NCBI GenBank assembly: GCA_003576845.1
Contig: QEVJ01000025.1
Span: 1 to 50,540, forward strand
DNA: 50,540 nucleotides
Direction: 5' to 3'
Origin: Planctomycetota bacterium
GTDB lineage: Bacteria > Planctomycetota > Planctomycetia > Pirellulales > PLA5
How positions within the stretch are numbered: position 1 is the stretch's first letter; every line of letters begins with the position of its first letter. The notes below the pieces were generated by a model. That model was not told the DNA's origin. It searched no databases and worked only from the letters and a program-made list of their open reading frames with translations. Shown piece after piece: positions 41,770-43,243 of the stretch. The position numbers and the translations under genes were made by a program.

Positions 41770-42738
41770 CTAGCTTTTTTCTGATGGTGGAAGCGCTGGT
41801 TCATCCGGTGGCTTTGCCTTGCCTTCTGCTTTGGGTTCGCCGCTTTCTGTCGTGTAGTAACTTTCTTCAGCCTGCATTCGTTCGCGCACGACCGCAAGCT
41901 CCGGGTCGGGCGAATTGTATCGGGCATCACCACAGCCGTCGATGAATGGGCGTCGCAGGCCGCGCGTGTTGTCGAGAAAGCCTCCCAAATAATCCTTCAG
42001 GTCGTCGGATCGAAAGTCGCGTTTGACACCAAGAAGCTTCTCGACCAAAACCGGCTCACCGTCTCGCATGTCCACCCAGAGGATTGGGTACGGCTCATCG
42101 AAGATCGCGCCCTTGAGCGGGGTAAGTTCGGCCAGGTGAATATGGAAGTGCCTGCGATCGAGCCGATGTGCGTCCACTCCATCGAGCAACAGCAGTGCAA
42201 GATCGGCTGAAATTGCCAAGCGGCGTTCGTCGGCATATCTCGCCACGCGAAACCCCAAGTCCATTGCCGGGCCAACGAAATCCAACAGCATCCCCGAACG
42301 AGGCAAGGGGATGTGGACTTCCTGATTTGTTACGGGAAACCCAGCAATCCAAGCTGCGGCCTTGAGCTTCAATGGGATTTCCTTTTTTCGCCAGAAGCGA
42401 TCGGGAAACTCCCGAGCCGCCGTTTTCAGCGCGCACAGATGAGATATCGCGTCGCCGACCTGGCGGATTTCTACGCAGAACAGGATTTCGTCGCCAACGA
42501 ACTTCCACTGTTCGAAGCGGCTGTCGCACGCCGGGCAATTGGCAGGAAGCGAGTCGTACGCAAATTGAAGAACGGTGGGAAAGGCCTCGAAGAACTCGCG
42601 AAACGTGGGCACCCACTCCGGAGCTTGTCCAGACTTGGCGACTCTGTCGACTTTGTACTTTGTTGATCCGACTAGGTCTACGCTCGCGAAGAGCCTCAGC
42701 TTCCAACGGTACTCATCCAATTGCTTCTTTTCGGACAC
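41770..42738 (-). CDS. Class III nucleotide-cyclase-like protein
   Basis: About 322 residues. Class III cyclase features: metal Asp in RLFASVDLVGSTKYK (D21), second metal Asp in QWKFVGDEILFCVE (D83) with Lys four residues before it (K79, the adenine-reading lysine position), and LLDFVGPAMDLGFRVARYAD, which aligns with the Y-D-x-x-G-x-x-V-N-x-A-x-R motif of adenylate cyclases. Here Asp153 matches the adenine-reading Asp, Arg164 the transition-state Arg, but the Asn is Asp160. A CxxC (NCPACD) sits in a long insertion (about 31-78). The C-terminal 120 residues were not recognised. No membrane segment. GTG 42738 has GAGG six bases upstream and overlaps the peptidase gene by 26 bases; GTG 42750 is an alternative. 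GC content is visibly lower than in core genes. Product could be cAMP or another cyclic nucleotide; activity is unproven. Confidence 0.72.
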   Translation of the reverse strand: MSEKKQLDEYRWKLRLFASVDLVGSTKYKVDRVAKSGQAPEWVPTFREFFEAFPTVLQFAYDSLPANCPACDSRFEQWKFVGDEILFCVEIRQVGDAISHLCALKTAAREFPDRFWRKKEIPLKLKAAAWIAGFPVTNQEVHIPLPRSGMLLDFVGPAMDLGFRVARYADERRLAISADLALLLLDGVDAHRLDRRHFHIHLAELTPLKGAIFDEPYPILWVDMRDGEPVLVEKLLGVKRDFRSDDLKDYLGGFLDNTRGLRRPFIDGCGDARYNSPDPELAVVRERMQAEESYYTTESGEPKAEGKAKPPDEPALPPSEKS

Positions 42739-43243
42739 GGGCGGCCTCACACGACACTTTGAACTTGGCGGCGATCCGCGTCAGGTCGTCCGTCTCCTTG
42801 AGCGCAGCTAAGAACTCAACCTTCGGCATCAGCAGGCTAGCAGCAAACCAGTTGGCCTCCCATTCGATTCGTGTTGATCCCTGCCGGTAGGCGACGATCG
42901 GAACTTCGCCCATGTTCGAATGCAAAAAGAAATGGCCAAGCTCGTGGCAAATCGTAAACCGATCTCGAAGGGGGCTGGTGTATCTGGGGAGGATTATGTC
43001 GAAATCGTACTCGCGATGCACGTAAATCGAGCCAGTTTCCTCGACCCAATCGCTCATGTCCAAGATTTTGCAGCGTCCGCCCAGTTGCGCCACCACTTCG
43101 GTCGGATCGTCGCCCGTCGCGAATTTCGTAATCCCCGCCACCTTTCTCGCATATTTTTCAACGTCCTCCTTCGTCATATTTGACGGGGGAATACTGCTTC
43201 CCTCTTTGTATTTCACGCCCTTGCGGGCAAATCGCGATATCAT
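42713..43243 (-). CDS. ImmA/IrrE-type zinc metallopeptidase
   Basis: 176 residues, M78-like. Active site RFTICHELGHFFLHSN (HEXXH at 100-104) and the third ligand in RIEWEANWFAASLLMPK (E129), with the family C-terminus LTRIAAKFKVSCEAARVRKE. ImmA of Bacillus cleaves the ImmR repressor and IrrE/PprI of Deinococcus cleaves DdrO under stress. There is no HTH domain in this protein and no Xre-type repressor gene next to it; instead its 3' end overlaps the cyclase-like gene, so the cyclase or an unlinked regulator may be its target. ATG 43243. Lower GC content than core genes suggests an acquired block. It is divergent from the helicase gene. Confidence 0.88.
   Translation of the reverse strand: MISRFARKGVKYKEGSSIPPSNMTKEDVEKYARKVAGITKFATGDDPTEVVAQLGGRCKILDMSDWVEETGSIYVHREYDFDIILPRYTSPLRDRFTICHELGHFFLHSNMGEVPIVAYRQGSTRIEWEANWFAASLLMPKVEFLAALKETDDLTRIAAKFKVSCEAARVRKEAIG

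Follow-up and report, generated by a model that had tools for sequence, protein, structure and literature searches.

Pycsar systems consist of the cyclase PycC together with PycTM or PycTIR, and their product is cCMP or cUMP. A catalytic asparagine is present in most, although not all, class III cyclases. One of the base-selecting positions of PycC enzymes (Y50/F60/F100) precedes metal aspartate 1 by two residues, as seen in AnPycC and EaPycC (PMC11224242). The targets known for M78 peptidases are either products of adjacent genes or dedicated repressors, as described for ImmA-ImmR, CapP-CapH, and PprI-DdrO (PMC2701414, PMC10904395); for PprI, a GAF-like C-terminal domain is required for activation by ssDNA (PMC10904395), and a cyclase partner of an M78 protein is not reported in PMC2701414. 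Literature searches yielded no description of an M78-cyclase pair, which the main 2021 Pycsar paper may nevertheless mention, and the module characterized here is apparently undescribed.

Gene organization of the locus

The window, i.e., the whole stretch of 50,540 nucleotides analyzed, corresponds to contig 204 in a genome of 7.05 Mb. On its minus strand, the gene of a small M78 peptidase overlaps that of a class III cyclase-like protein (Table 1), both open reading frames being as the original prediction had described them. The overlap of 38 nt assumes that the cyclase starts with the GTG at 42750; it would be 26 nt with the in-frame GTG at 42738 and 8 nt with the TTG at 42720. The pair is flanked by rsmA and an SNF2 gene, and no Xre-type repressor gene is found between these flanks, in agreement with the predicted lack of a repressor partner. 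Its GC content of 55.6% (GC3 around 0.64) is lower than that of the rsmA and SNF2 neighbours (65 and 64%, GC3 0.84), also as predicted. Neither PycTM nor PycTIR is situated next to the pair, and PycTM was not found in its own genome. This genome contains six more M78 matches (L002-L007), none of which is adjoined by a cyclase of the same family.

Table 1. Features of the M78-cyclase pair in the window (plain coordinates) and of related loci (named by locus).
Feature	Position	Strand	Remarks
M78 (ImmA/IrrE/CapP-like) zinc metallopeptidase gene	42713..43243	-	176 aa; Pfam PF06114, PADLOC capP, AF2, VIA
Class III nucleotide cyclase-like gene	41770..42750	-	326 aa, GTG start; AF2, Foldseek, VIA
Overlap of both genes, 38 nt (presumed translational coupling)	42713..42750	-	ORF positions; gap/overlap distribution in homologues
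M78: HELGH zinc-binding motif, residues 100-104	42932..42946	-	sequence
M78: E127, likely third zinc ligand (EWEANWFA)	42863..42865	-	invariant in alignments A2 and A7
Cyclase: catalytic domain, residues 12-232	42055..42717	-	range aligned to AC/GC structures
Cyclase: D25, metal aspartate 1 (SVDLVGST)	42676..42678	-	68/68
Cyclase: K83-x-x-G-D87, adenine-type Lys and metal aspartate 2	42490..42504	-	68/68
Cyclase: D157, adenine-type Asp (DFVGP)	42280..42282	-	68/68
Cyclase: D164 (for usual catalytic Asn) and R168 (transition-state Arg)	42247..42261	-	68/68 each; role by homology to adenylyl cyclase
Cyclase: K213 of LKG motif	42112..42114	-	K 61, R 6, D 1 of 68
Cyclase: family-specific C-terminal tail, residues 233-326, conserved RPFI motif	41773..42054	-	outside AC/GC-aligned region
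HE-less M78 copies	L083:4417-4947; L092:4397-4936		beside intact cyclases
PycTM-M78-cyclase, Methylococcales	L075, L086, L169		one strand
PycTM-M78-cyclase, firmicute-type prophage	L113		order as in Methylococcales
PycTM as next gene, phiC2/phiCD27 and about twenty near-identical prophage contigs			convergent
Cyclase-PycTM, alphaproteobacterium	L189		without M78

The M78 peptidase

The upstream protein matches Peptidase_M78 in Pfam (E 1.4e-21), its best PADLOC model is CapP (E 1.9e-24), and CapP is likewise its nearest solved structure, both by profile (E 1.8e-18) and by fold (7t5t). The AF2 model built from 56 homologues (pLDDT 95.5) aligns with 7t5t at VIA Z 13.9 over 143 residues, the alignment covering CapP residues 6-181 only. 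It thus exhibits the M78 fold with HEXXH and a downstream Glu that defines the ImmA/IrrE/CapP peptidases. The C-terminus of the peptidase corresponds to residue 181 of CapP and residue 176 of PprI; the protein is regarded as a bare M78 domain because it stops where PprI continues into its GAF-like region. A C-terminal sensor domain after the M78/HTH part, as in PprI and CapP, is missing, and no nucleotide-binding domain was found with Pfam.

Concerning the active site, HEXXH is retained in 71 of 73 paired M78 homologues. The HE is lost in one copy each from Dokdonella (L083, AQMLGH) and Novosphingobium (L092, AKQLGH), and the cyclases beside these copies keep all key residues; the two dead copies could represent recent decay. 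N-terminal extensions of actinobacterial M78 reading frames were rejected as real protein, as they look like open frame without conserved protein sequence.

The cyclase

The downstream protein has no match in Pfam, NCBIfam or PADLOC, and a sequence search of the PDB gave nothing useful, such that it was placed by fold search only. Among the 68 members aligned, one matched Guanylate_cyc of Pfam (E 0.04) and none the PycC-named PADLOC models at E 0.1, although PycC models are possibly absent from that library, in which those for PycTM are present. The AF2 model (68 sequences, pLDDT 91.3) retrieves class III cyclases in Foldseek from E 3.9e-9 (CyaC, 1wc5), and it superposes on the mammalian AC domain 1cs4_B with VIA Z 16.7 and an rmsd of 2.6 over 186 residues; values for CyaB, CyaC, and Rv1900c are similar, in all cases over cyclase residues 12 to 232 approximately. 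The original prediction had made itself dependent on a superposition with class III cyclases, and the model does fit adenylyl and guanylyl cyclases. The PycC structures 6YII and 7R65 do not appear among the matches that the fold search listed, from which no conclusion follows in either direction.

The residues D25, K83, D87, D157, D164, and R168 are identical in all 68 homologues. According to what is established for class III cyclases, D25 and D87 are the metal aspartates, the adenine-type pair consists of K83 and D157, and R168 is the transition-state arginine; the metal aspartates and the Lys/Asp pair had been named at the outset. The family thus possesses the catalytic fold, the two metal aspartates, and the arginine of class III cyclases, with Asp164 throughout in the place of the catalytic Asn. 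The PycC base-selecting position two residues before metal aspartate 1 is occupied by an invariant serine, Ser23. A purine product is predicted because of this serine and the adenine-type K83/D157; judging by the Lys/Asp pair, the product is probably cAMP or another purine nucleotide. When the family is taken more broadly, the Lys/Asp pair is not found throughout, since the cyclase of phage phiC2 exhibits R and E at the two positions.

The C-terminal tail is longer in M78-linked cyclases (median 118 aa) than in those without M78 (66 aa), a difference that is confounded by descent. Two cyclases, L113:4941-6356 and L114:4821-6404 (phage phiC2), carry a C-terminal NUDIX-like domain (NUDIX_4 E 4.8e-7 for L113), which has an apparently degenerate NUDIX box and matches the PADLOC candidate PDC-S07. 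A Sphingomonas cyclase (L052:4965-6236) apparently ends in a tudor-like domain; the PcrA/UvrD tudor match was obtained for one of the 68 members and assigned to this one from its tail sequence.

Occurrence and pairing in bacteria and phages

Cyclase homologues were gathered from plasmids, genomes, viral contigs, and phages, resulting in 99 distinct cyclases. For 67 of them the immediate upstream neighbour is an M78 gene in the same orientation, and these are distributed over at least eight phyla (Planctomycetota, Verrucomicrobiota, Pseudomonadota, Spirochaetota, Actinomycetota, Fibrobacterota, Cloacimonadota, Aminicenantes) and phages (Leptospira phage LE1, Clostridioides phages phiC2 and phiCD27). 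Nearly all of these gene pairs overlap or are separated by at most around 120 nt, and mostly they overlap or lie within around 20 nt. As the same two genes recur in this order and on one strand, the pairing goes beyond chance; adjacency in other genomes had been the second point on which the original prediction was to be judged. The protease-cyclase module is real and conserved. A third gene conserved in all loci was not found.

On a tree of 98 cyclases spanning phyla, the M78 label changes only four times, which means that the pairing is ancient and stable. Two clades of Caulobacterales/Sphingomonadales, in which the cyclase is intact, and two single rows lack M78. The nearest relatives of the window's cyclase on this tree are from planctomycetes. 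The partners co-diverge: pairwise distances of M78 proteins and cyclases are correlated with a Mantel r of 0.72, a value that none of 2000 permutations reached. Chromosomal genes for a SpoIIE-type phosphatase and an MFS-HEAT protein form a conserved cluster with M78-less cyclases of Caulobacterales/Sphingomonadales (L021, L045, L087, and others). The pair on a Mycolicibacterium plasmid is immediately preceded by a second M78 gene (L014:2617-3192) and followed by genes for TcmP and Gp37/Gp68.

The module is rare and patchy, being found in around 1% of planctomycete, gammaproteobacterial, and actinobacterial genomes: it was counted in 3 of 392 genomes of the window's phylum, 3 of 369 gammaproteobacteria, 4 of 346 actinobacteria, and 14 of 337 alphaproteobacteria, each count including the search centre itself. 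In the congener G1605 no cyclase was found. Since this genome retains rsmA with the upstream side and SNF2 with the downstream side, on separate contigs, the stretch between rsmA and SNF2 is the variable part. Another genome of the same order (G1609) possesses the pair, again with M78 directly upstream. Carriage by plasmids and phages, low GC content, and absence from the congener identify the pair as a mobile unit. A neighbourhood rich in defence genes, proposed originally as a check, is not apparent as a consistent signal among 136 genes flanking the relatives; matches were obtained to 120 PADLOC families, which with few exceptions hit one or two of these genes each and are thus not informative, and HTH_3 is found in only six.

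PycTM genes beside the cyclase

The same 136 flanking genes include two matches to PycTM (PF18967). Altogether, PycTM adjoins relatives of the cyclase in four lineages (Table 1), which are a small minority. One member per lineage was checked with Pfam and lies above the curated cut-off of PF18967; in the three lineages with M78, the assignment is corroborated by PycTM models of PADLOC, with best E values of 1e-21 to 1e-31. PycTM is uncommon, with six copies above the cut-off in 49 genomes searched, two of them at the module, and its adjacency to the cyclase is therefore not expected by chance. The four strong copies away from the module were not counted as evidence; two of them (L118, L119) lie in two sphingomonads beside an aminotransferase-like gene resembling serine palmitoyltransferase, with no cyclase seen nearby. 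The alphaproteobacterial locus contains a divergent cyclase relative of 594 aa (L189:117-2457) with PycTM directly downstream, which is near to the classical Pycsar layout.

The original prediction, according to which the pair fits neither an M78-repressor layout nor that of Pycsar, holds for both layouts; it overstated the remoteness from Pycsar, given the PycTM neighbours in four lineages. Most M78-cyclase loci, including that of the window, have no PycTM or other recognized cyclic-nucleotide effector adjoining.

Possible function of the pair

The two genes probably constitute an undescribed cyclic-nucleotide alarm system, and the module most likely represents a Pycsar-like variant in which a CapP-like protease is the partner. 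As the best explanation, to which we give not quite an even chance, we suggest a mobile Pycsar-like cassette in which the cyclase makes the signal and M78 is a dedicated regulator, the cassette being probably directed against phages or triggered by stress. The downstream gene would encode a homodimeric cyclase that forms a cyclic mononucleotide, with cAMP or a different purine nucleotide as the probable product, and the upstream peptidase would be its translationally coupled partner. By analogy with CapP, PprI, and ImmA, the peptidase may sense a trigger and act on the cyclase, most likely on the family-specific tail, thereby releasing or restraining it; the model follows the M78 proteins with known targets in assigning the action to the product of the neighbouring gene. 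The nucleotide would act via a PycTM-type membrane effector where one is encoded next door, and elsewhere, as in the window's own genome, via a receptor encoded at another place or by direct toxicity. A defence function is plausible in view of the family links, the carriage by phages, prophages, and plasmids, and the patchy distribution.

The dead M78 copies, the M78-less clades, and the loci with both M78 and PycTM suggest that the cyclase is the indispensable component and M78 an accessory one, a regulatory role of M78 being more likely than that of sole effector. In two lineages M78 and PycTM share one gene run on one strand, and M78 is therefore not just a replacement for another effector in these cases. 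Of the two roles that the original prediction had allowed for the protease, effector or switch, the former is weakened by these three observations.

Nevertheless, the main rival assigns precisely this role to M78: the cyclic nucleotide would activate the protease, host proteins would be cleaved, and growth would stop, as in a Pycsar system with a protease effector. The format of an enzyme plus a partner with M78 in the effector's place is consistent with it, loci with PycTM only (L189), with M78 only, or with both resemble exchangeable effectors, and the reading stays alive because most loci are without an identifiable effector. We consider it unlikely, however, as the bare M78 domain of around 176 aa ends before the CapP C-terminal sensor region and no nucleotide-binding domain was found in it, as the HE is lost in two loci with intact cyclase, as M78 and PycTM occur within one operon, and as two clades keep the cyclase without M78.

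A toxin-antitoxin-like pair, in which runaway nucleotide production by the cyclase is harmful and M78 checks it by binding or degradation, is rather improbable: two cyclase clades live without M78, and the adjacent PycTM genes suggest an effector on which the nucleotide acts, even though a small, overlapping, mobile two-gene unit, the resemblance of M78 to RmrA-type and other M78 proteins of toxin-antitoxin loci (PMC2701414), and the retention of catalytically dead M78, which would suit binding, are in its favour. Ordinary regulation by a cAMP-type circuit unconnected to defence, as the apparently vertical chromosomal M78-less cyclases of Caulobacterales/Sphingomonadales (one clade beside a SpoIIE-type phosphatase) might suggest, is very improbable given the PycTM adjacency and the rare, patchy, plasmid- and phage-borne paired form.

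Returning to the regulated Pycsar-like cassette, the module would unite two parts of bacterial immunity so far seen apart: M78 proteases serve as switches that start a defence response, and class III cyclases signal alarm by way of a nucleotide. It raises the questions of whether the protease controls or answers to the cyclic mononucleotide and whether cAMP itself is a defence signal. Direct control between a cyclic mononucleotide and a soluble metalloprotease, in either direction, is possible if somewhat doubtful; it would make this either the first protease-effector Pycsar-type system or the first M78-gated cyclase, with probably cAMP rather than cCMP or cUMP as the immune signal. The findings suggest that Pycsar-like systems extend more widely than current models detect, including Clostridioides and Leptospira phages. 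The module is directly testable, being simple, widespread, and composed of two genes, and its cyclase family is unnamed in databases.

Comparison with known systems

In contrast to CBASS, the enzyme of the pair is a class III cyclase and not a cGAS/DncV-like nucleotidyltransferase. With the class III adenylyl cyclases (CyaC, Rv1900c, mammalian AC) it shares the fold, the metal aspartates, the Lys/Asp pair, the Arg, and the Lys, whereas Asp for the catalytic Asn, Ser two residues before metal aspartate 1, and an own C-terminal tail set it apart from them. Equally to ImmA-ImmR, Xre-COG2856, and RosmerTA-like toxin-antitoxin loci, a small M78 protein is part of a mobile two-gene unit; its partner is, however, a cyclase instead of an Xre repressor or a PIN/RelE toxin. 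Concerning CapP-CapH, which regulates CBASS, and PprI/IrrE-DdrO, CapP is the closest M78 protein by both sequence and fold, whereas a repressor partner of the Xre, CapH or DdrO type is absent from the pair and the small M78 protein lacks the C-terminal region that forms the GAF-like domain of PprI for ssDNA activation (PMC10904395).

From Pycsar, the pair differs by a cyclase without PADLOC match, by its M78 partner, and by the absence of PycTM from its own genome, as well as by the adenine-type Lys four residues before metal aspartate 2 together with Asp157 and by Ser in a position occupied by Y or F in BcPycC, AnPycC, and EaPycC (PMC11224242). Common to both are a class III cyclase with both metal aspartates, mobility, and, in the four lineages mentioned, PycTM beside the cyclase.
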